Shown here: positions 1-40,528 of the stretch, piece after piece | Position numbering within the stretch: the first letter of the stretch is position 1 | Layout of the letters: each line of letters begins with the position of its first letter | Assembly (NCBI RefSeq): GCF_017599345.1 | Contig: NZ_JAGFVL010000022.1 | Coordinates: 1-40,528 of the forward strand | Length of the DNA: 40,528 nucleotides | Reading direction: 5' to 3' | Source of the DNA: Gracilibacillus suaedae | Lineage (GTDB): Bacteria; Bacillota; Bacilli; Bacillales; Amphibacillaceae | The notes under the pieces: model-generated | Seen by the model: only the letters and a program-made list of their open reading frames with translations | Database searches by the model: none | Told to the model about the DNA's origin: nothing | Made by a program: the position numbers and the translations under genes

Positions 1-86
1 AGCGCAGTATTCTGCCGGAGCGAATGACAACACTTCTCAAAAAACAGGATAGAACAACGCAAATCCATGTCCAGTTACTGCGCAGT
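1..86. repeat. Border-flanked palindromic element E1, right part, cut by window start
   Basis: The first 86 bases match the right end of elements E2 and E4: a B-module arm (GTATTCTGCCGGAGCG), a conserved subterminal stretch and the right border TTACTGCGCAGT at 75-86. The left part lies outside the window. It sits downstream of the ftsH terminator. Confidence 0.8.
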
Positions 87-116
87 TTATGGATTCTGCA
101 TTGCTTTCTTGAAGCG

Positions 117-155
117 TAAAAAAGCAGCTCCTTTTTAAAGTAGGAACTGCTTTTC
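117..155 (-). terminator. Intrinsic terminator of ftsH
   Basis: Read on the minus strand, AGCAGTTCCT pairs with AGGAGCTGCT around a 9-base loop and is followed by a T tract (A run at 117-122). It lies just beyond the ftsH stop codon. Confidence 0.85.
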
Positions 156-158
156 GTC

Positions 159-2183
159 TTATTGTTTATCTTTATCGTCGTCGGACTCTTCAGTTGATTT
201 GTCTTGGTCGAAATAGCTTTTTGAATCCTGGTCAAAATAGCTTTCTTCTTCCTTCGGTTGAATGTTTACTTTAAAGTCAGATGACTTGTTACCATCTTCC
301 TTTGTATCGTTCGTTTCTGTTGCAGATGGTTTTTCTTTACCATCTTGTTCAGAAACTACTGGATCTGGAAGTTTACCTTCTTCAAATAAACCTTTAATCT
401 GACCTGCATCTAATGTCTCAACTTCTAATAGAGTCTTCGCTACAAGCTCTAACTTGTCACGATTTTCTGTGAGAATTTGTTTTGCTCTGTTATAACATTC
501 TTGGATGAAGTTTTGGATTTCCTGATCGATTTCATATGCAATCGCATCACTGTAGTTTTGCTCATTTTGCATATCGCGACCTAAGAAAACTTGCCCTCCA
601 CCACTTCCAAATTGGAGAGGTCCAATCTTATCACTCATACCATATTCCATAACCATCTTACGAGCAATTCCGGTTGCGCGCTGGAAGTCATTGTGTGCAC
701 CAGTACTTGCTTCACCAAAGATGATTTCTTCAGCAACACGACCACCTAATAAACCGGTGATCTTATCGAACAACTCTGGTTTTGTCATAAAGTATCGATC
801 TTCACGCGGTAGCATGACAGCATACCCACCTGCTTGACCACGAGGTACAATCGTTACCTTATGTACCATATCTGCGTCATCTAGCACCATACCAATAATC
901 GTATGTCCACTTTCATGATATGCGACAATATTACGTTCTTTCTCCGATATAACCCTACTTTTCTTAGCAGGACCAGCGATGACGCGATCAATTGCTTCAT
1001 CAATATCTTCCATACCGATCTTCTCTTTATCATGTCGTGCTGCAACAAGTGCTGCTTCATTCAAGAGATTTTCGAGGTCTGCACCTGAGAAACCTGGTGT
1101 ACGCATAGCGATTGTCTTCAGATCAACATCATCTGCTAATGGTTTATTACGTGCATGAACACCTAATACGTCTTGACGACCTTTCAAGTCTGGACGATCC
1201 ACGGTGATTTGACGGTCAAAACGCCCTGGACGTAATAACGCAGGGTCTAAAATATCTGGTCTGTTAGTTGCAGCGATAATAATAATTCCTTCATTCTCAC
1301 CGAAACCATCCATTTCAACGAGCAATTGGTTTAAGGTTTGTTCACGTTCATCGTGACCCCCACCTACACCAGCTCCACGCTGACGACCTACTGCATCTAT
1401 CTCGTCAATAAAGATGATACATGGTGCATTTTTCTTCGCATTTTCAAATAAATCACGTACACGGGATGCACCAACACCGACAAACATCTCCACGAAATCC
1501 GAACCACTTATAGAGAAGAACGGAACTCCTGCTTCACCTGCAACAGCTCTGGCAAGTAATGTTTTACCTGTACCAGGAGGTCCTACTAGCAAAACCCCTT
1601 TTGGAATTTTTGCACCGATAGCAGAGAATTTGCGTGGATCTTTTAAGAAGTCAACTACTTCTACTAATTCCTGCTTCTCTTCATCCGCACCAGCAACATC
1701 TCTGAAACGAACTTTTTTCTTTTCTTCATTGTACATTTTCGCCTTACTCTTACCAAAGTTCATGACACGGCTACCACCGCCTTGCGCTTGGTTAAGCAAG
1801 AAGAAAAATAGAATGAATATAATAACAAATGGAATCATGGTTGTTAAAAAGGTAACCCATCCACTTGGTTGTTCTTCTTCTTCTACCCATAATATCCCCT
1901 GTTCATTAGCAGTTTCTTCAACTTGTTCAATAATACCTGGGCTATCTAGGATATTGGTCATAAAGGGTTTATCATCTTGCTCTAACTCCCCTACCACACG
2001 TATTACACCATTGGAAGGGCGCATTTCCATTTCTTTGATTTGGTTATTTTCCAATGCTTGCATAAATTCGTTTACTTTTAATTCTTCAGCCTGGTTGTTT
2101 TGGCTGCTGAATACTGATATGATCCCTATCACAACTAAAAAGATTACGAAATAGAGGATCACATTACGTATAATCCGATTCAT
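159..2183 (-). CDS. ftsH: ATP-dependent zinc metalloprotease FtsH
   Basis: Membrane-anchored AAA+ protease that extracts and degrades membrane and cytosolic proteins. The 674-residue product has two N-terminal membrane segments (about 7-25 and 110-131) around an extracytoplasmic domain, Walker A GPPGTGKT at 201-208, Walker B IIFIDE at 256-261, the second region of homology ([20 protein letters not shown]) and the zinc-binding HESGH at 423-427. This is the full family architecture. A strong Shine-Dalgarno (GGAGGAGG) precedes the ATG. The C-terminal tail is acidic and contains the duplicated motif SYFDQD; such tails vary among FtsH proteins. It follows hpt and ends at a strong terminator, as in B. 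subtilis. Confidence 0.97.
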
Positions 2184-2219
2184 TGCCTACCTCCTCCCGA
2201 AACGAGAAAACTATAGTAA

Positions 2220-2249
2220 ATAGTATCATATTGCAAGACTTTATGACAA
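2220..2249 (-). promoter_or_regulatory. Candidate sigma-A promoter of ftsH
   Basis: TTGTCA and TACTAT lie 18 bases apart in the hpt-ftsH gap. Neither hexamer is perfect. ftsH has its own promoter in B. subtilis, so the position is plausible. Confidence 0.4.
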
Positions 2250-2274
2250 CTAATTACAACTGACGTTTGCTTGA

Positions 2275-2820
2275 TTATTCTTCTCCACCATAAACTTCTG
2301 GTTTTAAAATACCGATATATGGTAAGTTTCGATATTTCTCTTGATAATCTAATCCATAGCCCACCACAAATTCATTTGGCACTTCAAAACCTACCACATC
2401 TGCTTTAATATCAACAGTTCTTCCTTCAGGTTTATCTAATAATGTGACAATTTTAATAGAATTTGCCTGGCGGTACTTAAATAAATCAACTAAATAACTT
2501 AATGTAAGACCACTATCAATGATATCTTCAATAATTAAAATATCACGGCCTTCTACCTTTGTGTCTAAGTCTTTCACGATTTTAACTTCACCAGAGGAAC
2601 GCATTTCATTCCCGTAACTTGAAACATCCATAAAATCCATTTCTAGGTGTGTATCAATCGAACGTAAAATATCCGACATAAAAGGTAATGCACCTTTCAA
2701 CACACCAACCGCTAACGGAAACCTTCCTTCATATTCTTTGGTTAACTGTTCACCAAGCTCTTTACATTTCGCTTGTATTTGCTCTTCGGAAATTAATATT
2801 TCCTTTATTTCATCATGCAT
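2275..2820 (-). CDS. hpt: Hypoxanthine phosphoribosyltransferase
   Basis: Purine salvage enzyme that joins hypoxanthine (and usually guanine) to PRPP to give IMP (GMP) in the cytoplasm. The 181-residue protein carries the PRPP-binding signature [12 protein letters not shown] near residues 95-106 and the expected family length. The gene starts 11 bases after tilS with an AGGAGG ribosome site. The tilS-hpt-ftsH order is the conserved Bacillus arrangement; in B. subtilis HprT and TilS also act together on ftsH transcription, which is known for that species and not shown here. Confidence 0.95.
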
Positions 2821-2831
2821 CTTGCTGCCTC

Positions 2832-4238
2832 CTATTCATTTGAATCTGTATATGTTAATGAAATATATTTCCCAACAGAACCTTCTTGTTCTATTTCCGC
2901 TTTCTTTAAACCAACAATCCATAGCAAAGTTCCATCAGCACCGAATATGAGTGGCCAGCTGTCTCGTAAAAAAACAGGAACCTTCTCATCAATAAATATA
3001 TCTTTTACCTTCTTCCGACCATTTAACCCTCTCACCTTGATACGATCCCCTGGCATTCTTACTCTCATACTCAGTGGGAATAATGATTCACATTCGATCG
3101 GGATATGTAAAGTTTGATTATCTTCATGGATGGCTCCAGAGGTATAAGTAGTTTCAAGGGTGGCACCGTTCGGTAATAGCATTACACCGGGAACCTTTAT
3201 GAATTGGTGGACTTTCCATTCCTTTTTGACTTGGGAGAGAAAGTGGATACGCAATTCTTGGTAATTTTTTGTTACTTTTAAGGATTTTGGAAAGTCTAAA
3301 GTAACATTACTCTTTTCTTGTTCTAATAATGCAAAAAAAGCTTTTTCATGTTGTGTAGATAAATCTGTCGGTACTTCTTGATAAAGATAGTTTAATATTA
3401 GATGAAAGGCTCGTCTTTGTAAAGCTATCGGGTAAGATCGAAAAGCATCAATATTAAAAAATACCGTGTCTTTTTTACATGTTACAACTTCATGCCACAT
3501 TGCTTTGGATTGTGCTTGGAGGAATTCTTCATCCTCCGTCAAACGCTCTGTCATTTCCTGTACATGAAGATGGACGTGACGATCTTGCTGCTTGAGCAAT
3601 GGTAAAACATGCAACCGGAAGAAATTGCGTGTATAGTCCATGGATTGGTTTGAAGGATCCTCCCTGGGAACGATCTCGAGCTCTCGGCAATATTGGTAAA
3701 TTTCATTCTTAGATAAACATAATAAAGGCCTAATGATATGTCCGTTTGCGAATTTTCTTTTTACTGGAATACCAGTTAAAGCAGCTGGATTAGACTGACG
3801 TACCAATCGCATTAATACAGTTTCTATCTGGTCATCACCATGATGTGCCAAAGCTAAAAAATCAGATCCTGTTTCTTCCATAACTTCTTCAAATACTTGA
3901 TATCGCAAAATACGGGCTGCTACTTGTGTTCCTTCTTTATGTATTTCTTTTCTCCTGTTCACATCTACCTGCTTGCCTATAAAAGGGACGCCTAATTGTT
4001 CACAAACCTGTTCAACGTATTGAACATCTTCTGCAGAATCTTCCCCTCGCAAACCATGATCAATGGATATTACCCTAACTTGTACATCCCATAGTTTCTG
4101 CAAGCTTACTAAATAGTGTAGTAATAACAAAGAATCTGCACCACCTGAAACACCTACTAACACCTTTGCACGCTTGTGTAGTAATTGATGTCTCTTCATA
4201 AATGGCGTTAATTTATCATAAAGGGTTGTTTTACTCAA
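2832..4238 (-). CDS. tilS: tRNA(Ile)-lysidine synthetase TilS
   Basis: Converts C34 of the CAU-anticodon tRNA-Ile to lysidine using ATP and lysine, an essential decoding step. The N-terminal PP-loop motif SGGADS is present, followed by the TilS substrate-binding regions and a C-terminal domain. The reading frame opens upstream at an ATG (4253) with no ribosome site. A TTG at 4238, preceded by GGTGGTG and giving [10 protein letters not shown], fits better and is chosen here (468 residues). It is followed closely by hpt. The exact start is moderately sure; the identity is firm. Confidence 0.92.
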
Positions 4239-4304
4239 ACACCACCACCCCATCCAATCTTGTTTACATTATTTTAACATAATATGAATGATAAAATCTT
4301 TTTA

Positions 4305-5249
4305 TCACATAAAAAATGTAACATAAAGATAACAGGCACCTCCAATAGTTAATATACTACCTATTTCAAGAAAAGGATATAATGCTTCATGAGGGCTCTT
4401 TGCTTTTTGATGACGTCTTCTCTTATCTCTTTTAGACTTCTGATGAATAAAATAATTCAACAAAAAATCTTTTATCTGTTCAGCCTCTGTTATCGAATTA
4501 TTAATGAGCATCAGTAATAATTTTCTCAATGGATCGATTGCCACTGCCTGATTGATTTTCTGTTCTAATGTTTTTTTAGGATTACTTCCTTTAGTAAAAC
4601 CATTTGGATAATAGACTCGCAAGATCACCATTGCTAGCGCGAAGAGATCGTAACCTGGGTCAGCTTTACGTGAACCACATTGCCAATAAGCACGATCATA
4701 GAATTCAGTATACTCTTTGATCGCTCTACCTTGTAAGGTTGTCCCACCGACATCAACCCATCTTAATTGAACGGGCTTACGTGATACAATTAAATTTTCT
4801 ATCTTTAAATCACCAAATACATACCCCTGCTGATGTAATACATGTAAATCATTAGCAAATTTGATCAAAAGAGATACTAACCATTCATGACCATTCCTTC
4901 TAATAAAATCATGCAAGGACTCACCAGATATATATTCCATTACATAAAATGAATAGGTAAAGCCATTCTGAGCCTGATAATCATCCACATCTATCAAAGA
5001 AGGTCCAAGGTGATAACCTTGAACCGCTTGGAAGGATTTCAATACGTTTACTTCAGAACTCACAGAAGCACTTTGTTTACTGATTTTCAGTGCTACTTGT
5101 TTTTTTTCGTGTACACAAAGGTAAACTGCGCCAATCGCACCACTACCCAGTTTTTTTACGACATGGTAATGGTGACGGTGCCATTTACCTTTGACAATTT
5201 GTCCTTTTCTTAACTGAATATCAGGCTTCTTCGATGTCTGTGTAATCAT
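4305..5249 (-). CDS. yabT: YabT-like serine/threonine protein kinase with C-terminal membrane anchor
   Basis: Hanks-type kinase of 314 residues. It has a glycine-rich loop GSGAIGAV at 35-42, the VALK lysine at 55, GDLKIEN at 146-152 in place of the usual HRDxxxxN, and DVG at 166-168 in place of DFG. One hydrophobic segment ends the protein (about 297-312). B. subtilis YabT has the same plan, lacks an extracellular sensor domain, binds DNA and phosphorylates RecA during sporulation; those roles are carried over by homology. The ATG at 5249 has a GAAGGAGA ribosome site and gives the best start, overlapping yabS by 29 bases. An in-frame ATG at 5285 lacks such a site. Confidence 0.9.
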   Translation of the reverse strand: MITQTSKKPDIQLRKGQIVKGKWHRHHYHVVKKLGSGAIGAVYLCVHEKKQVALKISKQSASVSSEVNVLKSFQAVQGYHLGPSLIDVDDYQAQNGFTYSFYVMEYISGESLHDFIRRNGHEWLVSLLIKFANDLHVLHQQGYVFGDLKIENLIVSRKPVQLRWVDVGGTTLQGRAIKEYTEFYDRAYWQCGSRKADPGYDLFALAMVILRVYYPNGFTKGSNPKKTLEQKINQAVAIDPLRKLLLMLINNSITEAEQIKDFLLNYFIHQKSKRDKRRRHQKAKSPHEALYPFLEIGSILTIGGACYLYVTFFM

Positions 5250-5955
5250 CGCGTGTAAATCTCCTTCGTAACGTCTTCTTGCCAAATTGATACATAGCTT
5301 CTTTTAAAGCTGGTCCAGTTGGTGTAATACCTCCGCTTGATATTTTAGCAAAAATAGAAGTGATAGAATCTAGCTTTGATGTCCAATCTACTAATTGTTG
5401 AATCGGCTTCTTTCGTCCAGGAAATTGATATACAGCAAAACGACTCCGCCCAATCCTTGCATTCATACTGATGGAAAGATCAATAAGAGCTTCTTGAACA
5501 GTTGGTAGTTTATTGGTCATGCTGGCACTTGTATCAACAAGTACTAACACTTCTAAATCACATGTCTCTCCTAATTCATCGACTACTTCCATAACCTCCC
5601 CGCGCTGTTCTGGGGGTAATTCTTCCATTGTTTTTTCACTACCTAAGATTTGCTTTAATTCATTATTCACAACTCCTTGCAACGTTTCCGTCATCGCCTG
5701 CTTGGTAACAGTTTGAACGGTTTGTGCTAATGCATCCTGATAAACAATTTGACTAACCCCTTGTCCGTTTTCAGAGATTTCTTCTACTTCTTCCAATCCT
5801 TCAGGTTGTTCTGTATGATCATCTTCTAATATGCCAATGACATTAACAGTAATTCCTTGTTCGGCTACTAAACTAGCTACTAATGCTGGATCTTCTCCTT
5901 GGTTAGAGCAACCATCCGTAATTAAAAGAATTTGTTTAAGTGTCCCAGTTTTCAT
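5221..5955 (-). CDS. yabS: von Willebrand factor A domain protein YabS
   Basis: A 244-residue protein with VWA-type segments: ILLITDGCSNQG near the N terminus and, later, LEVLVLVDTSASM, whose DTSAS is a MIDAS-like metal-binding motif. The biochemical role is unknown. In B. subtilis the gene lies between spoIIE and yabT, as here. The start has GGAGGG six bases upstream of the ATG. The 3' end overlaps yabT, so the two are probably translationally coupled. Confidence 0.85.
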   Translation of the reverse strand: MKTGTLKQILLITDGCSNQGEDPALVASLVAEQGITVNVIGILEDDHTEQPEGLEEVEEISENGQGVSQIVYQDALAQTVQTVTKQAMTETLQGVVNNELKQILGSEKTMEELPPEQRGEVMEVVDELGETCDLEVLVLVDTSASMTNKLPTVQEALIDLSISMNARIGRSRFAVYQFPGRKKPIQQLVDWTSKLDSITSIFAKISSGGITPTGPALKEAMYQFGKKTLRRRFTRDDYTDIEEA

Positions 5956-6038
5956 GCATTTCCCTCCTATTATTGGTCATTGATTATTAGTAAGGTTCGC
6001 CAATATTGGGGGGAATTATACGTTTGACTTGCTGTTCA

Positions 6039-8495
6039 TTAGCTAATGTCTTCTCTTTCAAATTGCCGAAAGGAACGAATAGGTGCCCATTGTGGTTGAT
6101 TTTCCGTAATTTGAGCTACCAATACCGTCATATCGTCTTCAATCTCACCACTTTGAGTTCGAATCACCTCTTCCAGTAATAAATCAGCGATCTCTTGAGG
6201 TTCTTTTGTTTCCATTTCCAGCAGTTTTCGCTTCAACCATAGATCGACATTCTCTATGTCTTTCGGACCTTCAAAAATCCCATCACTCATCATAATTAAG
6301 AAATCTCCTGCTTTTAATTGTGCACTGACAACATCAACTTCTACCTCCTGAATAATCCCGATGGGAAGGTTACTAGCCTCTATCTTCTCTACAGCATCAC
6401 TCCGCATAATAAAACTAGGAGTAGAACCTACCTTCAAAAAGCGAACGACTGCATGGTGGAGATCAACCATTGCCAAATCTAATGTTGCATAAATCTCTTC
6501 ATTTGTTCTGAGTGCTAAGATGGAGTTGATCGATTTAATTGCTACCTGCTCATGTAAACCAGATTCTAAAATTTGTTGTAATAACCGTAATGTTTCGGTA
6601 CTTTCTTCATGTGCTCTGTCTCCATTTCCCATCCCGTCACTAATAGCTAAAGCATATTTTCCGGCACCAAGCTCCATTGATTTATAGCAATCCCCCGATA
6701 TTAATCCTCCTCCTTTGGCTGCGTGTGCCACTCCAGTATCAATGACGAATTTTCTGGCAGAACCAAAGGTAAAAAAGCTATGTCCTTTTGCTAAAGGAGA
6801 TAGATCTTCTGTAACGACAATGATCGTTTCGTCCAATATATCAGAAAGAATAGGTGCGATCAGTTTGGCAGCTTCTCCATGGTATTGCTGGAACGCAATC
6901 ACCATTTCAATATCGATGTTTCCTTTCTCTAAACTATAAATATCTAATTTTTCTAGTTCAATCCCTACGTGTTTTAACGCTGCAACTATTTCAATTTCCT
7001 GTTGCTCATGGTTTTCTTTTTCTTTGAGAATTTCACTAGCAAAATTCTCCATAACTTCTGATACACCACTTAATTGATCTGCGACAAAACGTCTGCTTTC
7101 TAACACTTGTTTCTTCAGTTGTTTGTTTGCTTCAAAAAATGATAGTTCTTGTTGCATGGTATCGATCACTTTACGAGATTTAATACAGTGATTTTCAAAC
7201 TGTCTGTTCGTTATATTATTTAATTGATTATCTGACTCCAATTGATCTTTGACATCTCGCATTAAATCATATGTTTTATCAAATTGTTGTACCCAACAGG
7301 TTTCTTTTTTAAAGCATGTTTGACAAGTTTTTTCTGTGACATTACTTAAATAGTAGTCCACTTCTAGATCCTGTTCCTGCCATTGATTGGATTCTGTTTG
7401 AAAGCTGCGAGATAACGCTTTAAATACATTGGAGAACCGTTCGACTCGATGGGCAGTAACATTACGAACCTTTTGCAAATATTGCTCCTGCTCATTAGTA
7501 TGTTCAACCGTTCCTGGAATATATTTAGCAATCTGTTTAATCAATTTGCTTGGTGTTATTAAAAACAATAATATCGCTATGGCTGATTCCATTAATGCTG
7601 TTGCCAGATAATCAAAGGATTCGCCATATAAACTGATTAACAACGTACTAATTAATAAACCTAAACTGACAGCCAGTTTTCTTCCTTCTTTCAGTAACCC
7701 ACCTAACAAGCCTGAAAAAGCTAATAAACTCATTTGAAACATATTGGCGATACTAGCAAGGCTCAATATTAATCCTGCTACAACTCCAACAGTGGAACCA
7801 ATTGCTGCACCACCAACCAAGGCAAGGAGCAATACTAAATATCGTGCCAAAACCTGTTCCATTTGCGCATCATAGATTTCTACACCAATTACTCCAGTTA
7901 GTACCGAAGCTAATAAAATGATAAAACAAACAATTTCTTCATTTTTTAAGAGTGGTTTATATCTTTTTGGTGATAATAATGGAATACTTTGCATAAAGAT
8001 TAGTAATAGAACAGCTGCCAATATCCCTTCAACAAGAGCAATGACCCATTCCAGATATGTTAGCTTTGCTGTCATCGCATAGATACTTATTCTAGGAATA
8101 CTTGCTGCAAAAAAGACGAAGAACGGTAAGATCCTCTCGACCGACTTCGATTGATAGATAAAAAAGGAGAGGACTATTAAGATAGAAATTGATAAAAATA
8201 TATAGAAGCTATGTGATAGACTGTATGTAAAAGCTCCTATTAATGAGAATGTAATAAGTGGAAGTACTTTGTCCCGACGTAAAAACCAGACTGCCGCAAC
8301 AAAAGCGATCACAAATGGTGAAAGTGTCGATAAGATGACAGCTCTTCCTAATAGAAAACCGATAATACAAATAAGCAAACCTTTCTCAAACAATAAGCTT
8401 GTCCAATGTTGGCCGATCTTTTGGCGTAAGTTATTCATCATAGGATGAGAACTAGAAAAAAAAGATTTTGGTTTATTATCCGTATATGTGTTCAT
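6039..8495 (-). CDS. spoIIE: Stage II sporulation protein E, PP2C-type phosphatase
   Basis: Membrane phosphatase that dephosphorylates SpoIIAA to release sigma-F in the forespore and that also acts with FtsZ at the polar septum. The 818-residue protein has about ten hydrophobic segments in residues 38-330, a central regulatory region, and a C-terminal PP2C domain with the metal-binding stretches SDGMGNG, MMSDGIFEGP and DDMTVLV. Length and architecture match the family (about 827 in B. subtilis). GAGGAG precedes the ATG. It leads the spoIIE-yabS-yabT cluster and has a Spo0A-type promoter upstream. Confidence 0.97.
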   Translation of the reverse strand: MNTYTDNKPKSFFSSSHPMMNNLRQKIGQHWTSLLFEKGLLICIIGFLLGRAVILSTLSPFVIAFVAAVWFLRRDKVLPLITFSLIGAFTYSLSHSFYIFLSISILIVLSFFIYQSKSVERILPFFVFFAASIPRISIYAMTAKLTYLEWVIALVEGILAAVLLLIFMQSIPLLSPKRYKPLLKNEEIVCFIILLASVLTGVIGVEIYDAQMEQVLARYLVLLLALVGGAAIGSTVGVVAGLILSLASIANMFQMSLLAFSGLLGGLLKEGRKLAVSLGLLISTLLISLYGESFDYLATALMESAIAILLFLITPSKLIKQIAKYIPGTVEHTNEQEQYLQKVRNVTAHRVERFSNVFKALSRSFQTESNQWQEQDLEVDYYLSNVTEKTCQTCFKKETCWVQQFDKTYDLMRDVKDQLESDNQLNNITNRQFENHCIKSRKVIDTMQQELSFFEANKQLKKQVLESRRFVADQLSGVSEVMENFASEILKEKENHEQQEIEIVAALKHVGIELEKLDIYSLEKGNIDIEMVIAFQQYHGEAAKLIAPILSDILDETIIVVTEDLSPLAKGHSFFTFGSARKFVIDTGVAHAAKGGGLISGDCYKSMELGAGKYALAISDGMGNGDRAHEESTETLRLLQQILESGLHEQVAIKSINSILALRTNEEIYATLDLAMVDLHHAVVRFLKVGSTPSFIMRSDAVEKIEASNLPIGIIQEVEVDVVSAQLKAGDFLIMMSDGIFEGPKDIENVDLWLKRKLLEMETKEPQEIADLLLEEVIRTQSGEIEDDMTVLVAQITENQPQWAPIRSFRQFEREDIS

Positions 8496-8521
8496 TTATA
8501 TCACTCCTCTGTCCACATTAA

Positions 8522-8932: not shown

Positions 8933-9386
8933 ACTGCGAACTAATGGAAATTTCCGAATTGAGACTTTCTTCCAATCTGATTTTTGCTTGAGTGCTTGCA
9001 TACGCTACGACAAGATACTTCGCTTTCCACGGGCATGGCCTCAGCCTCCTCAGAAAACAAAGAACGTTTTCTTGCGGGGTCTTCGGACACGTGCTGGTCC
9101 CGTAGGAGTCTACGTATCTTGCCTTCGCTTTGCGTAGTGTTCTGATTGTTGAAAGAAGTAACACCGAGAAATGGTTACCGAGTATTTCCTCTTACAAAAG
9201 GTAGAATTATCTACATAGCGGAGGCAGAATACGGAGACTCCTGTGGGACAGCGAGAGCTGAAGATCCACTTTGCAAAGTTAGCTGAAGCCGAGCCCACGG
9301 AAAGCGCAGTATTCTGCCGGAGCGAATGACAACACTTCTCAAAAAACAGAATGAAACAACTCAAGTCCATGACGTTACTGCGCAGT
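8933..9386. repeat. Border-flanked palindromic element E2 (B-type interior)
   Basis: The 454-bp element has left border ACTGCGAACTAA (8933-8944) and right border TTACTGCGCAGT (9375-9386). The interior holds two consecutive palindromic units. The first runs from about 9001 (ACGCTACGACAAGATAC) to about 9140 (reverse-matching GTATCTTGCC...GCGTAG). The second runs from GGCAGAATAC near 9224 to GTATTCTGCC near 9310. It fills most of the 726-bp gap between tRNA-Met and yabR. Open frames crossing it resemble no protein I know and are treated as fortuitous. Confidence 0.8.
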
Positions 9387-14852: not shown

Positions 14853-15092
14853 ACTGCGACATTTATTGAGCGGACATTTAGTGCGTTATTTGAATGAAAA
14901 TCACCTGTTTTCCGATGTTAGCGGACATTGAATACCTTATTTGGTTCATTTCAGCCTCAATTAGCACTATTTTTGATGAATAGCGGAATAGATGTCTGCA
15001 ACCACCCTAAAAACGGCACTTTTGTCACAAATAACGGAACAAATGTCCGCACTAAGGCCAGATTTACTTGGAAGTCCAAGTTACTTCGCAGT
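14853..15092. repeat. Border-flanked element E3 with GCGGACATT-type interior
   Basis: The 240-bp element has left border ACTGCGA (14853-14859, preceded by AGATACAT) and right border TTACTTCGCAGT (15081-15092). The interior differs from E2/E4. Inverted arms containing GCGGACATTT at both ends surround related internal copies (AGCGGACATT, AATGTCCGC). It lies in the 444-bp gap between ptsG and yabM; apart from this and the ptsG terminator I see nothing in that gap. Confidence 0.75.
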
Positions 15093-18381: not shown

Positions 18382-18435
18382 AACTGCAAATTAGATACAT
18401 ACTGCGAAAACTGCAAATTAGATACATACTGCGAA
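18382..18435. repeat. Exact 27-bp tandem duplication at the left end of E4
   Basis: Two identical 27-base units (AACTGCAAATTAGATACAT plus ACTGCGAA) lie head to tail at 18382-18408 and 18409-18435. Each contains the first bases of the border, so E4 has one and a half left borders. This could reflect slippage or repeated insertion/excision at the border. Confidence 0.9.
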
Positions 18436-18898
18436 GTAATGAAAATTTGTGGAGTGAGGCCTTCTTCCATTCTGATTGATGATGAGTGCTAAGTCGACGC
18501 TGCGGAAAAATACTCCCTTTCCGGGGGCACGGCCTCAGCTAACTTGGTGAAGAAAACCACTTCACCAAGTGGATCTTCGGCTCGCGCTGTTCCCCCAGGA
18601 GTGTCGCATTTTTCCGCAGCTTAGTGTGTATTTCTTATCAAGTAAGAAGAAATTCACAGATATATTCCCAAAAGTTCTCTTCTTTCGATCATCAGAATAC
18701 TACGCTTAGCGGAGGCAGAATACGGAGACTCCTATGGGAACTTACGCGAGTCCGAAGACCCCGCAGGAAAGCGACTTTTGCTTTCCGAGGAGGCTAAGGC
18801 CGTGCCCATGGAAAGCGCAGTATTCTGCCGGAGCGAATGACAACACTTCTCAAAAAACAGAATGAAACAACGCAAGTCCATGCACGTTACTTCGTAGT
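18401..18898. repeat. Composite border-flanked element E4 (A module plus B module)
   Basis: The 498-bp element has full left border at 18428-18439 and right border TTACTTCGTAGT at 18887-18898. Two large palindromes follow each other. Module A is 18499-18620, with ends GCTGCGGAAAAAT / ATTTTTCCGCAGC and a perfect 11-bp apical stem at 18542-18552 / 18560-18570. Module B is 18714-18829, with ends GGCAGAATAC / GTATTCTGCC. Module A is almost identical to E8, and module B to E1 and E2. It fills most of the 766-bp gap between spoVT and glcT. Confidence 0.85.
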
Positions 18899-19648: not shown

Positions 19649-22600
19649 CTAGGCTACAGGTGTTTGTTTCATCTCACTTAATGTCTGGATAAACTCCTCT
19701 AAAATCTCATATCGCTTGATATATTGGGACTTATCAAAGCGGAACTCCACTTTTAACTTGCGATTCTCCGTACCTAATTGAATTAACCTGCCATATTGAT
19801 TGGCAAATTCAAATAATTTCGCACCATCTAATTCCTGGCTTCTCTCTTCTTCTACTATTACTTCTATTTTTTGCTTTCGTTCGGTGATCGCTTCGATTCG
19901 TTCCTTCTTGGACATCATTTTTAGTGTTGATACATGGAAAAGATTTTCAACTTCTTCTGGGTAATCGCCAAAACGATCGATCAGTTCATCTCGTAAATCA
20001 TGGACATCTTCTTGTGAATAAATAGCTTGGAATCGTTTATACATATCAACCTTCTGTTTTTCATCCGGTATATAATTATCTGGAATATAGGCATCGATTT
20101 TTAAGTCTAACTCCACTTCAAAGGGCTGTACTTCTTCGACAGCTTTGCCTTGTTTTTTCGCTTCCACAGCTTCATTCAACATCTGAGAATACATATCAAA
20201 ACCGACAGAGTCGATAAAGCCGTGTTGCTGGGCACCTAAGATATTACCAGCACCTCGGATAGATAAATCACGCATAGCAATCTTAAACCCTGAGCCTAAT
20301 TCAGTGAACTCTTTGATAGCCTGTAACCTCTTTTCAGAAACTTCCGTTAAAATTTTATCTTGCTGATAAGTGAAATAAGCGTAAGCAACACGATTAGAAC
20401 GTCCTACCCGGCCACGTAATTGGTATAACTGACTTAACCCCATACGATCGGCATCATAAACGATTAAGGTATTGACATTAGGAATGTCTACCCCTGTTTC
20501 AATAATCGTTGTACTCACTAATACGTCTGCTTCCCCTTCTAAAAAGGAAAACATCACATTCTCCAGTTCAGATTCATTCATCTGTCCATGTGCAACAGTT
20601 ACCCGGGCATCTTCTACTAATGCTTGGATGTCCTGCGCAATTTTATCGATAGATTCCACTCTATTATATAGAAAGAATACTTGACCACCTCTGGATAACT
20701 CACGTTCAATCGCTTCCCTTACTAAAGGTGCATTATACTCCATGACATACGTCTGAATCGGAAAACGATTCTCTGGTGGTGTTTCAATCACTGATAAATC
20801 ACGAACTCCTAGCATCGACATATGCAATGTTCTCGGTATTGGTGTAGCGGTTAAGGTTAATACATCTACATTCGTTTTTAATTGCTTAATTTTCTCTTTA
20901 TGTTTTACACCAAAACGTTGCTCCTCATCAACAATAAGTAGTCCCAACTCCTTATAACTAACATCCTTAGATAATAATCGATGGGTTCCAATCACAATAT
21001 CTATCGTGCCATTCTTTAAACCTTTTAATGTTTCTGATTGCTGTTTTCTTGTTCGAAAACGGCTTAACAAACCAATATTAATCGGGTAATCCTGGAACCT
21101 CTCCATTACCGTTTCATAATGCTGCTGCGCTAAAATAGTTGTAGGAACCAATATCGCCACTTGTTTACCATCGGCGATTGCCTTGAAAGCTGCACGAATG
21201 GCAACCTCTGTTTTACCGTAACCAACATCTCCACAAAGAAGGCGATCCATTGGCTGCTCTTTCTCCATATCTTGCTTAATTTCTTCGACACAGCGTAATT
21301 GATCCTCTGTTTCCTGATATGGGAACGATGCTTCGAAATCTCGTTGCATTTCAGTATCTAGTGAAAAAGCATACCCTTTAGCAGCTTCTCTTTCTGCGTA
21401 TAACTTCATCAAGTCATCTGCAATGTCCTCGACTTTGGATTGTACTTTGCTTTTGACCTTCTTCCAGTCATTACCGCCTAACCGGTATAATTTAGGCTCT
21501 TTACCTTCTGAACCAACATACTTCTGCACCAAATCTATTTGATCTATCGGTACGAAAAGCTTATCATCCCCTGAATATTTAACAAGCATAAAATCTTTAT
21601 GCAAACCATTCACTTCTAATGTTTCAATCCCTATATATCGACCAATACCATGGTTAGCATGTACGACATAGTCACCGACTTGTAATTCTTGATAACTCTT
21701 AATCCGCTCAGCATTCGATACTTTTTGTTTACGTTTTTTTCTAGTTGTTTTTTGTTTAAACAACTCATTCTCGGTTATAACGGCAATTTTATGCATTGGT
21801 AATTCAAAACCACCACTAATGTTGCCAATGGTGATTACAGGATGCTTTATAGGTAAGTCTGGTAATGTCTCGCTCATTGTGGCACTCATCTGATAATCTT
21901 CCAGAACAGATTGAATTTTTTCCATTCTACTTTGATTTGGTGCCAAAATAATAACGGAGAATTCCCCTTTATCCCATCGGTCCATTTCGTTTTCTAATAA
22001 ATTCATTTGCCCATGAAATTGTTGCATTGCCCGGCAGGAGAGATTCACAATATTAGCTGGATTTGTGTTTGGAATATGGCGTAAAAAGACAGAAAGGTAT
22101 AACCGCTGCTGCTTCATATTATTCCAAACTTCATGCCAATCAAACGATAACCTAGAATCACTGACAGCTTTACCGCGTTGCAAATTATCTTTAAGCCATT
22201 CTTGTTCTTCGTTATCCAAATGAGAGGCGGTTTCCTGAATTCTACTCATTTCATCTAATATAATAAATCCGTCTTCTGGTAAATAATCTAGTAAACTATA
22301 GTTATCATCGTAGAAAAACCCTGCATATTTTCTTATTTCCTGAAAACGTTCACAATGATTTAGACGATCTATGTCCGCTGTAATCGTCTCCGTAAGAACT
22401 TGTTGATCAGATTTATTCTTAACCTTTTTCAACGTTTTATTTAGTGACTGTTCTAGTTTTTGAGCTGTAGCGACTAGGTCACTATCCTTTAGCAACAATT
22501 CTGTCGTAGGGATAACTGTAACCTGTTCTTGTTTTTCTAATGAGCGTTGTGACTCTGCATCATAGTAACGAATCGAATCGATTTCATCGTCAAATAATTC

Positions 22601-27768: not shown

Positions 27769-27970
27769 ACTGCGAAGTAATGAAAATTTCCGAAGTAGGG
27801 CTTTCTCTCAATCTGATTTTTGCTTTGGCATACCCTCCGGCAAGATACTGCGCTTTCCACGGGCACTCACATTATCCTCGGAAAGCGCAGTATTCTACCG
27901 GAGCGTTATTCTGTGCACTCTCTGTGGGAGAAGGGACAAGAGCAGATCCTCAAGCGAGTTACTTCGTAGT
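27769..27970. repeat. Short border-flanked element E5 with single hairpin
   Basis: The 202-bp element has perfect left border ACTGCGAAGTAA (27769-27780) and right border TTACTTCGTAGT (27959-27970). The interior keeps only the outer B-type arms, 27835-27858 and 27880-27903 (about 21 of 24 positions pair), around a short loop. It looks like a deletion derivative of E2-type elements. It lies between the spoVG terminator and the glmU promoter, within a 471-bp gap. Confidence 0.8.
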
Positions 27971-30706: not shown

Positions 30707-31065
30707 ACTGCGAACTAATGAAAATTTCCAAAGTGAGGCTTTCTCCCAATTCTGATTAATGATGAGTGCTCACATACGCTCCGGCAGAATACTGCGCTAT
30801 ATTAAGTGTTCTGAATTAGGGATTGGAAAGGTTTACCCAGAATATATACGTTTTGCTCCCCTCTCTTTTTTTCCAGAACACTATTCTAAGCTGCGGAAAA
30901 ATGCGACACTCCTGGGGGAACAGTGCGAGCCAAAGATCCACTTTGCAAAATGGTTTTCTTTGGAGGCCGTGCCCCCGGAAAGGGAGTATTTTTCCGCAGC
31001 GATGGTTATGCACTCATCAAGAAAAGAATGGAAGAGAGCAAATCCATATCCAGTTATTTCGGGGT
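30707..31065. repeat. Mosaic border-flanked element E6
   Basis: The 359-bp element has left border ACTGCGAACTAA (30707-30718) and degraded right border TTATTTCGGGGT (31054-31065). The right subterminal region, reversed, repeats the left one of E4/E8 (TCTTCCATTCT and GATGAGTGC), so the element is a long imperfect inverted repeat. Inside are a truncated B-type arm (to about 30800), a nested 78-bp insert bounded by AGTGTTCTG / CAGAACACT, and module A in the opposite orientation (30890-31000). It lies between veg and sspF. Confidence 0.75.
30805..30882. repeat. Nested 78-bp insert with inverted ends inside E6
   Basis: It is bounded by perfect 9-bp inverted repeats AGTGTTCTG (30805-30813) and CAGAACACT (30874-30882). 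It interrupts what is otherwise a junction between B-type and A-type sequence. No other copy was seen in the window. Confidence 0.55.
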
Positions 31066-31533: not shown

Positions 31534-33008
<1,475 letters not shown>

Positions 33009-33155: not shown

Positions 33156-33159
33156 ACAA

Positions 33160-34407: not shown

Positions 34408-34438
34408 GAACTCTTCCCTCCTTTTTACTCGCCGTTGT

Positions 34439-34467
34439 ATTATATAAAGATCCTTTTTCAGTGTCAA
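34439..34467 (-). promoter_or_regulatory. Sigma-A promoter of yabE
   Basis: TTGACA (34467-34462), 17 bases, TATAAT (34444-34439) on the minus strand: both hexamers perfect. Confidence 0.88.
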
Positions 34468-34479
34468 ATGGAGTTATGA

Positions 34480-34529
34480 AAACTAAAGAGCAGCAAAACC
34501 CTTGAATTCAAAGGGTTTTGCTGCTCTTT
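34480..34529 (-). terminator. Long-stem terminator after tatD
   Basis: A perfect 19-bp stem (34485-34503 with 34511-34529) with a seven-base loop GAATTCA; T-rich sequence follows on either strand. A smaller ATGCTGC / GCAGCAT hairpin overlaps the tatD stop at 34581-34599. Confidence 0.8.
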
Positions 34530-34598
34530 TCCACAGAATATTTCAGTTTGTTTACATTACCGTAACATTGCCTGAAACATATGCTGCTAAAGGCAGCA

Positions 34599-35369
34599 TC
34601 AGTTTATTAGACCGAAAAATCTTTTGGCATTTTCAGTTGTTTGCTTACTTATTTCTTCATAACTTACCTCACGCAGTTCTGCTATTTTTTCTGCAACCAA
34701 CTTCACGTAGGCAGGCTCATTTCGTTTTCCTCGATTTGGATGTGGCGCGAGAAATGGACAGTCTGTCTCGATCAATAAACGATCTTCCGGTACATACTTT
34801 GCTACTTCCTTCGGTAAAGTAGCATTTTTAAACGTTACTGGCCCACCTAGTGATATATAAAAGTTCATTTTTAAGCATGCATCAACATAGTCAACAGAAT
34901 CATTGTAGCAATGCATGATACCTCCAACTTCTTCTGCTTTTTCTTCCTGCAACACTTGGATAATATCTTCTGTCGCTTCCCGATTATGAATAATAATAGG
35001 TAAATTAACTTTTTTGGCTAACTGAATTTGCTTGCGAAAAACTTCTTTTTGTACATCTTTCGGAGATTTGTCCCAATGGTAATCTAGGCCCATTTCACCT
35101 AAAGCGACTACTTTTGGATGAGAGGACAATTCTTCTAACCACTCTAGTTCTTTGTCAGTCATATCGATAGCATCGACTGGATGCCAGCCAACTGCAGCAT
35201 AAATATCGTCATATTGTTCGGCCATCTCAATTGCTTTCGGGATCGTTTCATGATCAAATCCAACAATGACCATATTTTCGACACCGGCCTCTTTCGCTCG
35301 ATGTAATACTTCCTCACGGTCTTCATCGAAATGCGATACGTTTAAATGAACGTGTGTATCAAATAACAT
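34599..35369 (-). CDS. yabD: TatD-family metal-dependent deoxyribonuclease YabD
   Basis: A 256-residue TIM-barrel hydrolase with the metal-binding FDTHVHL at the N terminus, GEMGLDYHW, HNREA, HCYND and TDCPFLAPHP, all TatD signatures. Homologues act as 3' exonucleases or in DNA quality control; the exact role in Bacillus is unclear. AAGGAGG lies six bases before the ATG. It follows metS, separated here by element E7. Confidence 0.94.
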   Translation of the reverse strand: MLFDTHVHLNVSHFDEDREEVLHRAKEAGVENMVIVGFDHETIPKAIEMAEQYDDIYAAVGWHPVDAIDMTDKELEWLEELSSHPKVVALGEMGLDYHWDKSPKDVQKEVFRKQIQLAKKVNLPIIIHNREATEDIIQVLQEEKAEEVGGIMHCYNDSVDYVDACLKMNFYISLGGPVTFKNATLPKEVAKYVPEDRLLIETDCPFLAPHPNRGKRNEPAYVKLVAEKIAELREVSYEEISKQTTENAKRFFGLIN

Positions 35370-35437
35370 ACTATTCCTCCTTAAAAAAACAAACTAAACT
35401 GATTCTACTCTGCTCATTTCATTCGTAGTAGATACAA

Positions 35438-35704
35438 ACTGAAGTAGCTTAGTTGCAAAGTTAACAGGACTTCTCTTCCCTGGATATAGTCGTTTATCCT
35501 CGGAAGAGAGGATCTTTTCCACGGAACAGAACGGCGCTTCCGGGGATATCCTTTGCTGTTCCGAGGATATCGCCTTCTCTTCCCTGGATATAGTCGTTTA
35601 TCCTCGGAAGAGAAGATCTTTTCCCTGGAAGAGAAGCCTTTTTCCTCGGAACAGATCGGCGCTTCCGGGGATATCTCTTTTCCATATCCACGTTACTTCG
35701 CAGT
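35438..35704. repeat. Border-flanked element E7 with tandem-repeat interior
   Basis: The 267-bp element has a shortened left border ACTGAAGTAG (after GATACAA) and right border TTACTTCGCAGT (35693-35704). The interior is built of direct repeats: an exact 39-base copy at 35471-35509 and 35575-35613, and a near-exact copy (one change) at 35522-35550 and 35647-35675. A minus-strand open frame across it would be an arginine/lysine/proline-rich repeat peptide; I treat it as non-coding. It fills most of the 404-bp metS-tatD gap. Confidence 0.78.
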
Positions 35705-35724
35705 CTATTTTTCTGCGCATAAAT

Positions 35725-35768
35725 AAAAAGTACACACACGTTTCAAATGGTATGTGTGTATACTTTTT
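35725..35768 (-). terminator. Intrinsic terminator of metS
   Basis: On the minus strand AAAAAGTATACACACA pairs with TGTGTGTACTTTTT with one bulge, followed by ATTTAT. It starts five bases after the metS stop. Confidence 0.8.
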
Positions 35769-35773
35769 GATAT

Positions 35774-37771
<1,998 letters not shown>

Positions 37772-37820
37772 TCATTGTAGCGATTTTTCGAACATTTTTC
37801 CATTATAAAGTGAGACTTCG

Positions 37821-37894
37821 AGCAATGGGAAGGGTATCCCACTGCTTAATAGCGAAAATTATTAGAGTTAACGTCCGTGATCCCCCAGTTAACT
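37821..37894 (-). other. Two leader hairpins upstream of metS
   Basis: As minus-strand RNA, AGTTAAC / GTTAACT (37894-37888 and 37872-37866) is followed by AGCAGTGGGA / TCCCATTGCT (37846-37837 and 37830-37821). One pair of the second is G-U only on this strand. No T tract follows and no known riboswitch or T-box motif is visible. Confidence 0.45.
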
Positions 37895-37988
37895 TCCTTG
37901 CAGTTCTGAAACTTTAAGTAAATCTTATGGACGGTTAAACCGTGATAAATACATTGTCACCATTTTATTTACGTTTAAAACATCTAAA

Positions 37989-37997
37989 ATTGTCGAA
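37989..37997 (+). promoter_or_regulatory. Upstream Spo0A-box-like site near abrB
   Basis: ATTGTCGAA differs by one base from the 0A box TTTGTCGAA. It lies about 120 bases before the predicted abrB transcription start, so its role is uncertain. Confidence 0.4.
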
Positions 37998-38072
37998 AAG
38001 TCTCTACCAAACTATAGACTTGTATTTCTTCAAATTTTTTATAAAAGCTTGAAAAAAATGAGAAAATTAAGT

Positions 38073-38101
38073 TTGACAATAATGGCAACTAATGGTATTA
38101 T
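38073..38101 (+). promoter_or_regulatory. Sigma-A promoter of abrB
   Basis: TTGACA (38073-38078), 17 bases, TATTAT (38096-38101). The predicted start of transcription is about 38108. Nothing beyond this promoter, the 0A sites and the metS leader is recognised in 37727-38156. Confidence 0.88.
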
Positions 38102-38111
38102 AACGCTATAG

Positions 38112-38130
38112 ATGTCGAATATTGCCGAAT
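38112..38130 (+). promoter_or_regulatory. Tandem Spo0A boxes of abrB
   Basis: ATGTCGAAT and TTGCCGAAT sit 10 bases apart, just downstream of the predicted start of transcription. B. subtilis abrB has two 0A boxes at the same place, through which Spo0A-P represses it. Confidence 0.85.
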
Positions 38131-38156
38131 TTATTTATCAAAGGGGAGAATAAATA

Positions 38157-38435
38157 ATGAAATCAACAGGTATTGTGAGAAAGGTAGACGAGCTTGGTCG
38201 TGTTGTAATTCCGATCGAACTACGTCGTACTTTAGGAATTGAAGAAAAAGATGCTCTTGAAATTTATGTCGATGATGAGCGTATTATTTTACAAAAATAT
38301 AAACCAAATATGACTTGTCATATTACTGGTGATATCTCTGACGACAACTTTACATTAGCGGATGGAAAGCTAGTACTTAGTCCTGAAGGTGCTCAGACAC
38401 TAGTTGACGAAATCCAAAAGAAATTGAACAAATAA
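38157..38435 (+). CDS. abrB: Transition-state regulator AbrB
   Basis: A 92-residue DNA-binding tetramer that represses stationary-phase genes during growth. The N-terminal swapped-hairpin domain (STGIVRKVDELGRVVIPIELRR) and the C-terminal multimerisation region are complete. It is the only protein gene on the plus strand. AAAGGGGAG precedes the ATG. It shares a terminator with rsmI. spoVG, with its AT-rich sigma-H promoter, is a likely target in the same window. Confidence 0.96.
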   Translation: MKSTGIVRKVDELGRVVIPIELRRTLGIEEKDALEIYVDDERIILQKYKPNMTCHITGDISDDNFTLADGKLVLSPEGAQTLVDEIQKKLNK

Positions 38436-38442
38436 GATACAT

Positions 38443-38477
38443 AAAAACCCTGTTTCAGTGATTGAAACAGGGTTTTT
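38443..38477. terminator. Bidirectional terminator between abrB and rsmI
   Basis: A perfect 15-bp stem AAAAACCCTGTTTCA / TGAAACAGGGTTTTT with a five-base loop; A and T runs on both sides let it serve both converging genes. Confidence 0.93.
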
Positions 38478-38487
38478 ATTTGCAGTT

Positions 38488-39354
38488 TTACTCCACATGA
38501 TAAGCACTGTATACTTCTCTTTTTGTAACATTGCGATCTTTTGCTACGGTTTTGATGGCTTCCTTACTTGCACATCCCTCTAGTTCGATCACTTTTTCGA
38601 CATGTTCTTTTAAGGTAAGGTCTGTCCACCAATTCGTTTGTGGATGATCCTTAATTCCTTCCACAACAATACAGCATTCACCTTTTATCGATTTATCTGC
38701 TATCCATTCTGCTATTTCTGGTAATGTCCCTCTAATAAATTCTTCGTATCTTTTGGTTAACTCCCTTGCTATTGCTACTTGTCTAACACCAAGCGATTCC
38801 CCTAACACCTTAATTGTCTCCTCAATACGGTGTGGTGATTCATACAAGATAAACGTTGTATCAATGGATTGCAGTAATTGTAGTGCCTGTTCACGATCTT
38901 TTTTCTTACGTGGTAAAAAGCCATAAAAATAAAAATGATCAGTTGGCAATCCTGAACCAACTAATGCTGATAATGCAGCATTTGCCCCTGGTAAAACAAC
39001 AACTGGAAGATCTGCTTTGATTGCAGCTTGTACCACTTCATATCCTGGGTCTGAGATTCCTGGCATACCTGCATCACTTACTAGAGCCAGATTTTGTCCA
39101 TTACTTAGCATCTCAAGAATTTGACCCTGTCTTGCCATTTTGTTATGTTCATGGTAGCTGATCATCTTTTTCTTCAATTCAAAATGGTGTAACAGCTTCC
39201 CGGAATTTCTAGTATCTTCAGCTAAAACAGCATCAACTTCTTCCAATATGCGTAATGCACGAATCGTAATATCTTCTAAATTGCCGATTGGTGTCGGCAC
39301 CACGTATAATGTGCCTTTTTCTGCATCAGTTTGGTAGCTCTTCTGTATCTGCAT
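38488..39354 (-). CDS. rsmI: 16S rRNA (cytidine-2'-O)-methyltransferase RsmI
   Basis: Methylates the ribose of C1402 in 16S rRNA. The 288-residue SAM-dependent tetrapyrrole-methylase-fold protein has LYVVPTPIGNLEDITIRAL and LVSDAGMPGISDPG, the family signatures. The ATG at 39354 has GGAAAGG about nine bases upstream; two earlier ATGs in frame are badly spaced. It overlaps yazA by 29 bases. Confidence 0.94.
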   Translation of the reverse strand: MQIQKSYQTDAEKGTLYVVPTPIGNLEDITIRALRILEEVDAVLAEDTRNSGKLLHHFELKKKMISYHEHNKMARQGQILEMLSNGQNLALVSDAGMPGISDPGYEVVQAAIKADLPVVVLPGANAALSALVGSGLPTDHFYFYGFLPRKKKDREQALQLLQSIDTTFILYESPHRIEETIKVLGESLGVRQVAIARELTKRYEEFIRGTLPEIAEWIADKSIKGECCIVVEGIKDHPQTNWWTDLTLKEHVEKVIELEGCASKEAIKTVAKDRNVTKREVYSAYHVE

Positions 39355-39631
39355 ATACGCCATACCTTTCCGTTTGGTTTTCTTCAATCCATAATTCCTT
39401 TTGCTTTCTAGTAAGCTTTTTAATTTTTGCTTCTAACTGCAATGCTTCTGATTTTGTCTTACATGGTTGCTGGTACTGCAATTGAAATGGAGCTCTACCT
39501 CTTGTATATTTAGCACCTTTACCTTGTTCATGCATTTTCAATCTTCGCTTGATATCGGTTGTATAGCCTGTATATAAAGTTTCATCCTTGCATTTAAGAA
39601 TATAAACATAATGATTATTTTTTTCTTCCAT
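39326..39631 (-). CDS. yazA: GIY-YIG domain protein YazA
   Basis: A 101-residue single-domain GIY-YIG protein ([17 protein letters not shown], then R and E residues of the fold in [18 protein letters not shown]). Such small proteins are related to UvrC/SLX1 nucleases, but no cellular role is established. It overlaps yabB by 17 and rsmI by 29 bases, so the three form one translation-coupled unit. Confidence 0.92.
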
Positions 39632-40361
39632 ATAATATACCTTCTACCTCTTTTGTATATTTTCCCTTTTCATCGAAAGCATATAATGGTGGCAGTAGCT
39701 TGAGATCTGAATTTCCATCTCTAATTCCTTCTATTAATAAAATGTTTGCTTCTTTTCCTTCTTTCGGGTATACAAAACGAACACGCTTAGGTTCTATTTT
39801 ATATTGCCTGAATAAAGTAATAATATCGACAAAACGTGACGGACGATGTACCATGGCTACTTTCCCACCTGATTTTACAAGCTTACTACACGATTGTACC
39901 ACATCTTCTAACGTACAATAGATTTCATGTCTTGCAATTGTTAGATAGTCATTATGATTTTGGTGGTTTTTATTCACAGTTCGAAAATAAGGTGGATTAA
40001 CGGTTACTAAATCAAACTTGTTGTTTTTAAAGTGATCTGGCATATCTTTTAAATCGCCATGGATCATATCAATTTGATCGCCCAGTTTATTTAACTCAAT
40101 ACTGCGGCATGCCATGTCATATAGCCGTGCTTGGATTTCTACTCCTGTAATGGGGACGTTAGATTGTCTTGATAATAACAATGGAATGACGGCGTTACCT
40201 GAGCAAAGATCCAGTATTTTTCCTCTTGTTTTTGGTGTTGAAGCAAAGTCTGCCAGTAGCACAGCGTCGATGGAAAAGGCGAACTTAGTCGGGCTTTGAA
40301 TAATTTTCATGGTTTGATCTACTAACAGATCATCAATTCGTTCGTCTTCTTTAAGCTGCAT
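39615..40361 (-). CDS. yabB: YabB: TrmN6-like tRNA methyltransferase
   Basis: A class I SAM-dependent methyltransferase of 248 residues with motif [14 protein letters not shown] and the N6-adenine-type catalytic NPPYF. It resembles TrmN6, which methylates A37 of tRNA-Val in E. coli, and B. subtilis YabB; the target here is inferred. The ATG at 40361 after GAAGGGGA gives [13 protein letters not shown], like B. subtilis. The frame stays open into element E8, but that extension is repeat sequence, not protein. Confidence 0.9.
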
Positions 40362-40392
40362 TTGTTTATCCCCTTCAATAAAGTGCATAGTT

Positions 40393-40528
40393 GATACATA
40401 CTGCGAAGTAATGAAAATTTGTGGAGTGAAGCTTTCTTCCATTCTGATTGATGATGAGTGCTAAGTCGACGCTGCGGAAAAATACTCCCTTTCCGGGGGC
40501 ACGGCCTCAGCTAACTTGGTGAAGAAAA
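40393..40528. repeat. Border-flanked element E8, left part, cut by window end
   Basis: It begins GATACAT then ACTGCGAAGTAA (40400-40411) and continues with sequence that differs from E4 at only about two positions up to the window end. It stops in the apical loop of module A. It lies upstream of yabB. Confidence 0.85.

Follow-up and report, generated by a model that had tools for sequence, protein, structure and literature searches.

Intergenic repeats of bacteria are frequently taken for dead miniature inverted-repeat transposable elements (MITEs). Composite organisation has been described in the BOX elements of Streptococcus pneumoniae and Streptococcus suis, intergenic repeats with constant end modules, variable middle modules and predicted folding; in S. 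suis, boxB modules are common to elements with two end types, and boxD is present too in some of the elements flanked by boxAC (excerpts of PMC3049150). Here we describe eight intergenic elements, E1 to E8, in a stretch of 40,528 nucleotides from Gracilibacillus suaedae, a salt-loving relative of Bacillus (contig NZ_JAGFVL010000022.1, C19 in our numbering; the whole stretch is hereafter called the window). Each is a frame, that is, a pair of inverted border ends enclosing a variable filling. We consider it probable that these are old, static composite repeats bounded by terminal inverted repeats (TIRs), the contents of which are replaced when copies recombine ectopically, the switch lying at or near the core of the border. 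The frames themselves seem to be immobile now and to be located just beyond gene 3' ends. No account of such frames was found among open-licence papers on Gracilibacillus and Oceanobacillus intergenic repeats or on repeats and recombination in general.

The source genome is a draft of 4.65 Mb in 64 contigs. Border-like 12-mers with up to two mismatches occur 16 times in the window, against 3.4 expected and a maximum of nine in 100 shuffles, and they lie where an earlier note on this DNA had placed them. Genome-wide, a left-end 17-mer gave 71 matches and a right-end 17-mer 77, against three for the reversed control in either case, which speaks against such matches being as common elsewhere as at element ends. 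Read outward, both ends have a common core, TTACTTCGCAGT, past which they diverge into ATRTATCTACTNYGAAT on the left and TTATGKATNNTGTGCA on the right; the border exceeds 12 bases, extending some 16-18 bases farther outward on both sides. With position weight matrices at least 134 sites were placed across 86 stretches and the window, with accepted scores mostly of 20-55 and best reversed-sequence scores of 0.5 (left matrix) and 11.1 (right matrix). The stretches were drawn from 100 of 159 listed places and a few weak sites may be missing, so the counts are lower bounds: at least about 130 border sites in the genome, with 61 left and 71 right ends after removing two redundant readings. Pairing of ends gives 44 complete frames of 145-589 bp and leaves 44 ends single. 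A frame of only 71 bp, its filling almost absent, was seen in G. boraciitolerans (L206, 3013-3083). Outside the window 39 ends are unpaired; for 20 of them the contig ends no more than 486 bp away on the inner side, and among the other 19, a partner stands clearly above shuffles for L126, L133, L140 and L149 and marginally for L110, and none was found within 1.3 kb for the remainder. Counting both ends of C19, 22 of the 128 contig ends of the draft lie within 486 bp on the inner side of a border. This would be expected if there are long identical copies among the fillings, which may account for many contig breaks of this draft.

Fillings are of several classes. Three hairpins, with stems A (GCGGAAAAAT), B (GGCAGAATAC) and C (GCCCACTTCC), have a common inner part and distinct outer stems, and by sequence look like one superfamily (E4 aligns to its own reverse complement at 67%); the other two fillings, D (GCGGACATT) and E (tandem CTTCCGGGGATAT), bear no relation to these hairpins. 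The earlier description of unrelated interiors behind common ends is therefore correct for D and E and seems not to hold among A, B and C. Ten layouts were recognised among 47 elements (B 10, C-B 10, A-B 6, B-A 6, E 5, D 4, C-E 2, and C, A and C-A-B once each, with nothing recognised in one element), using fuzzy motifs that missed some hairpin halves, and the border is thus not tied to a single interior class. DNA of E4 found matches in 36 of 61 searched genomes, within the family and beyond, D in 7 of 41 and E in 3 of 41.

All eight window elements are given on the plus strand. E4 (18428-18898) is a complete frame, with cores at 18428-18439 and 18887-18898, an A-type hairpin at 18499-18620 (inverted repeat I5 and folding) and a B-type hairpin at 18713-18830 (inverted repeat I10 and folding); a 27-bp tandem duplication in its outer left border (18382-18435, plus strand) is absent from the close relative G014. 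E2 (8933-9386; cores 8933-8944 and 9375-9386, each with one mismatch) has an A/B-type hairpin filling, E5 (27769-27970) a short B-type hairpin, and E6 (30707-31065) a B-A filling, with one mismatch in its left core and a degenerate right core, TTATTTCGGGGT. E3 (14853-15092) carries the D filling and E7 (35438-35704) the E filling (tandem TTCCGGGGATATC class). In both of these the right core is exact (15081-15092 in E3) and the left end is interrupted within the core, in E3 after ACTGCGA. The left 12-mer is exact and the right has one mismatch in E4 and E5. No window element has both 12-mers exact, and the exact reverse-complement ends formerly reported for the best copies must be withdrawn. 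E1 (1-86, right core 75-86) and E8 (40393-40528, left core 40400-40411) are the right and left parts, respectively, of frames cut by the ends of C19; loci expected to continue past base 1 and base 40528 (L018, L044) end there. The 74-bp filling of E1 is 100% identical to another contig-start copy, L109, a match that we discount since both are contig ends and since it is partly expected, contigs breaking within identical repeats.

The positions of the sites are conserved across species. In an orthologous region of about 45 kb, the source genome, G014 (a close relative within Gracilibacillus, matching G. lacisalsi DSM 19029) and the complete genome G002 have borders at the same eight sites, with at least one end at each. 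The border matrices gave no further clear site in that region of these three genomes; the same scan returned a weak hit of 9.7 within a gene of the window, and a reversed-sequence maximum of 17.7 in G002. A mobile container, as one earlier suggestion had it, is not supported by this distribution. A contig of G016 spanning part of the region has E2, E3, E4 and E7, and shows no frame at E5 and E6, yet these are not clean empty sites. G011 has E3, E6 and one weak additional hit, and G012 three right-type hits at other places. G010 and G015 gave no hit with this border in the region. By eye, G015 has two-hairpin elements at E3 and E4 and G010 has reduced or rearranged ones, both with a different border containing ATAATATGGATTATGT, so frames differ among clades of the genus. 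In other genera (G028, G036) the two-hairpin architecture recurs, behind borders that are related or altered; extra small pieces, GGGGCGAGTAATCGCAG-type and CGAAGAAAATGTGTATTTCATTTTCGAGG-type, lie in or beside hairpins at L221, L226 and L227 (G028) and L235 and L238 (G036). Border pairs, mostly of 470-590 bp, also occur in G. lacisalsi, G. orientalis, a Virgibacillus and Oceanobacillus bengalensis, the last two with pairs of 526 and 585 bp. Aligned orthologous gaps contained no clean empty site, and a joined empty border, sought in 17 genomes, gave six matches in four genomes that all read like ordinary right ends. New sites, joined empty borders and long border pairs were sought as signs of whole-element mobility, and none was convincing.

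Inside these resident borders, D, E and A/B/C fillings replace one another at orthologous sites. At E3 the window has D, and the hairpins that occupy this site in G014, G002 and G016 show no blastn match to it. At E2 the filling is C-B in G014 and D-B in G002; at E5, C-B in G014 (right border alone found) and A and B in G002, with no clean element in G016; at E6, B-C in G014; and at E7, E also in G014 and hairpins in G002 and G016. Overall, the window and G014 differ in layout at E2, E3, E5, E6 and E8 (the last judged on its first 129 bases) and agree at E4 and E7, E1 being cut off. Three fillings are closer to copies elsewhere in their own genome than to the ortholog: best own paralog and ortholog compare as 92% and no match for E3, 91.7% and 83% for E4, and 98% and 77% for E8, whose A-type filling is 98% identical to that of E4 over 117 bp. 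Beyond the window, 25 of 40 G014 stretches selected by filling match one of 106 stretches of the source genome. Sixteen further orthologous pairs were classed: six are of different class (L149, L166, L104, L133, L113, L100), one is collapsed in the source genome (L167, whose G014 partner has one end alone), two are partly changed (L155, L159) and seven keep their class. Nine of the 25 were left unclassed, three matching on one side alone, five being D copies that align straight through and one aligning in two blocks.

Comparison of the ends indicates that the border is split, with the inner half of the core tracking the filling and the sequence farther out tracking the site. At swapped sites between the source genome and G014 (borders found in both; 5 left and 9 right ends), identity over core positions 1-6 was 0.70 left and 0.80 right, much as between non-orthologous sites (0.72 and 0.84). 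Over outer positions 9-18 it was 0.82 and 0.70 against 0.50 and 0.36 (permutation p 0.0005 each), and a gapped version with more ends gave 66/80 and 78/100. The intervening outer positions 1-8 gave 0.78 against 0.74 on the left (p 0.34) and 0.79 against 0.71 on the right (p 0.03). Within the source genome, likeness of the inner arm goes with that of core 1-6 (Mantel r 0.19 and 0.22, p 0.001 and 0.002); for core 7-12 and the outer blocks no correlation reaches significance (p 0.051-0.944), the nearest being right outer 9-18 (p 0.051) and left core 7-12 (p 0.062). Column pairs linked at p<0.03 tell the same: 43/55 left and 87/120 right for inner with inner, against 3/121 and 3/192 for inner with outer 9-20; inner with outer 1-8 gave 1/33 and 7/80, the latter slightly above chance, and right core 1-6 with outer 1-8 gave 3/10. 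The identity and correlation patterns together indicate that the inner core travels with the filling and that the outermost border remains at the site.

Orientation is constant outside the frame and free inside it. With the left end drawn left, 41 of 44 frames have beside their right end the 3' end of a gene that reads toward the element (simple open reading frame caller), and a single frame of the 44 lies between divergent genes. Terminator-like hairpins within 160 nt outside the frame accompany 47/67 right ends and 20/57 left ends, against 8/67 and 11/57 in shuffled sequence. In G002, if the replichores switch near 2.45 Mb, 62 of 73 elements are aligned with their replichore; this bias is compatible with gene direction, which the count does not separate from replication direction. 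Both orientations of the interior are found: A-B equals B-A in number (six each), and at framed sites compared across species the inverted alignment scores higher in 4 of 12, clearly so at L135 and, for G014 against G002, at E8. E4, the element that was folded whole as DNA, forms a single long core-to-core hairpin of -107.2 kcal/mol, against -57.0 for shuffles (z -10.8).

The comparisons establish the sites common to three species, the constant orientation to gene 3' ends, the changes of class, the separation of filling from outer border, the two interior orientations and the DNA folding of E4. Static borders, moving contents, internal chimeras, inversions and a switch at the last common sequence are what ectopic recombination of near-palindromes would give. 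Of the ideas in the earlier note, a recombination site that captures palindromes is the best fit. Fillings would be drawn from a small pool of hairpin and repeat modules common to the copies in the genome and replaced in place, with the switch inside the 12-bp core or immediately beyond it. The copies would most likely exchange sequence by ectopic homologous recombination or gene conversion, carried out by RecA-type repair and not by a dedicated recombinase. The near-palindromic contents probably cause breaks or fork stalling, hairpin cleavage may be the initiating event, and the tract limits would be set by borders and arms as the sole homology left at each edge. Hairpins are cleaved by SbcCD-type nucleases, a possible trigger. 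The frames may originally have arrived through transposition.

It should be considered that several results weigh against ectopic recombination as set out here. For E7 the best own paralog reaches 72%, short of the 79% over 243 of the G014 ortholog, and for E2 the comparison is mixed (83% over 431 for the paralog, 99% over 110 for the ortholog); the 99% match, of the right hairpin, is not read as orthologous retention because this hairpin is nearly as alike between many sites. Among the swapped pairs, no border passes the threshold in the G014 partner of L104, and L133 and L113 have partners there with one end alone; the 9/16 changed pairs give no unbiased rate since pairs were selected by filling or border. 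Two swapped-site ends depart from the split, L155 left (core 12/12, outer 9-18 2/10) and L104 right (5/10). Left ends show a further correlation, of core 1-6 with outer 1-8 (r 0.18, p 0.010), which may put the switch a few bases beyond the core. A tree of 49 B hairpins groups weakly by species (15 changes against a shuffled mean of 17.6, as low in 8 of 200), and strong species-wise homogenisation, or concerted evolution, is hence not claimed; as B hairpins of different species intermix, the module sequence seems constrained or anciently common. Finally, the edge homology of about 12-40 bp is short for RecA-type recombination.

A dedicated exchange in the manner of recombinase-mediated cassette exchange (RMCE), in which a putative recombinase or transposase acts at the core (TTACTT/CGCAGT) and swaps content between two inverted cores, would account for the switch point at or near the core and for sequence-unrelated fillings (A/B/C, D, E) behind one core. 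The outer left border also has near-invariant positions beside free ones, as in a protein-binding site: out2, out4 and out6 are held in 48, 50 and 50 of 50 classed ends, and out1 and out3 vary (finding sites by consensus likeness inflates conservation, but not its unevenness). A resemblance of the left border to dif or loxP sites, noted by eye, plays no part in this argument. We nevertheless think dedicated exchange unlikely. No enzyme was found, no transposase or recombinase being linked to a border; convergent pairs of unlike ends longer than 589 bp were absent from the source genome, searched up to 1.3 kb, and G002 had none between 515 and 4,667 bp (93 of 127 sites). Moreover, chimeric hairpins and the A-B, B-A and C-A-B arrangements are not made by core-to-core exchange. 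The full form of this idea, in which crossing over at the core would let a dedicated system trade noncoding hairpin cassettes among about 100 fixed, oriented docking frames beside gene 3' ends, is marginally less likely still; if true, it would be a gene-free cassette system.

Improbable, too, are ordinary MITE subfamilies with common TIRs, moved in trans, a different one landing at the same sites in each species. The frames are noncoding, TIR-bounded and present in many copies, with pairs of similar size in other species and genera, and each filling class tends toward its own arms up to the core. Yet the three species have no new clear site in the region, the joined-border search yielded right-end-like matches alone, and the outer border at swapped sites is mostly old, which argues that a whole TIR element was not re-inserted. 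A shade more doubtful is differential loss, by which ancestral frames with several modules would have kept a different module in each lineage, making exchange merely apparent. Composite layouts such as C-E and C-A-B in the source genome and D-B at E2 of G002 would suit it, but not the fillings of E3, E4 and E8, closer to same-genome copies than to the ortholog, nor the inner core variants, which accompany the filling and not the site.

Least probable is that the modules move by themselves, as REP-like hairpins mobilised by a Y1 transposase, and insert into a favoured host repeat. This is poorly matched to an old filling and inner core replaced jointly instead of interrupted; all 47 checked A/B places lie within 413 bp of a border (the initial look scored 40 of 160 candidates), and the genome has a single Y1_Tnp match, which spans positions 2-50 of 121 and lies in a 62-aa frame. 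In its favour, a B-like hairpin occurs without this frame in G045, of a different family (four copies read), and D and E are found without borders. Repeated insertion into one host repeat, as once proposed, may still apply to those two fillings: of 12 further D copies, two have both ends and three have one at the threshold used, and of eight E copies one has an end. E-type units also form a tandem array without borders at L272 (contig C14). A REP/BIME system with a RAYT was rejected on the one partial Y1 match.

The window's genes include ftsH, hpt, tilS, spoIIE, a spoVB-like gene, mfd, glmU, a tatD-family gene and metG (NCBIfam; ten open reading frames scanned), and all those scanned are on the minus strand. 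Stem mispairs in the 47 elements are G-T in 93 and A-C in 84 cases with no strand preference, and thus give no sign of one RNA strand under selection. An RNA function behind the folding thus seems unlikely, given this lack of G-U bias, a test run without a positive control, and given that no Rfam family scores above gathering at the elements. Sub-threshold matches to tsr24, a small RNA of Staphylococcus aureus, fall on the B hairpin at 9198-9318 (30.2 bits) and the A hairpin at 18502-18617 (28.5 bits; gathering 50). A match to Ysr141 at 21039-21297, on the strand opposite mfd (37.5 bits, gathering 196), is probably common mfd coding sequence.

Position is separable from content here, the frame being inherited with the site and the filling replaced. 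Sequence alone therefore allows one to measure how fast short noncoding repeats recombine ectopically, which donors they use and where the breakpoints fall. The frames are a natural record of noncoding DNA shuffling in bacteria, and a caution that repeats at orthologous intergenic sites may be non-homologous inside.

Among known systems, several resemble the frames by description. Correia elements, ERIC and BIME/NIME are likewise short and intergenic and have inverted ends or a mosaic organisation (in part from excerpts of PMC3049150), and the bcr repeats of the Bacillus cereus group are likewise intergenic, structured and from Bacillaceae, bcr1 measuring 147-167 bp (excerpt of PMC2267715). 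The likeness to MITEs is one of shape, all 44 frames being short and noncoding with inverted ends, and extends to high copy number and strong folding; in contrast to MITEs, the frames have a variable interior in ten layouts, no autonomous partner among the examined sites, positions common to three species and no demonstrated target duplication. The closest known kind appears to be composite repeats such as pneumococcal BOX, by likeness of architecture, since constant ends with variable middles are found here also. The frames differ from BOX in their sequence-unrelated fillings, their length of 145-589 bp, the right end placed at a gene 3' end in all but three of 44, and the replacement of fillings within a resident outer border at orthologous sites.

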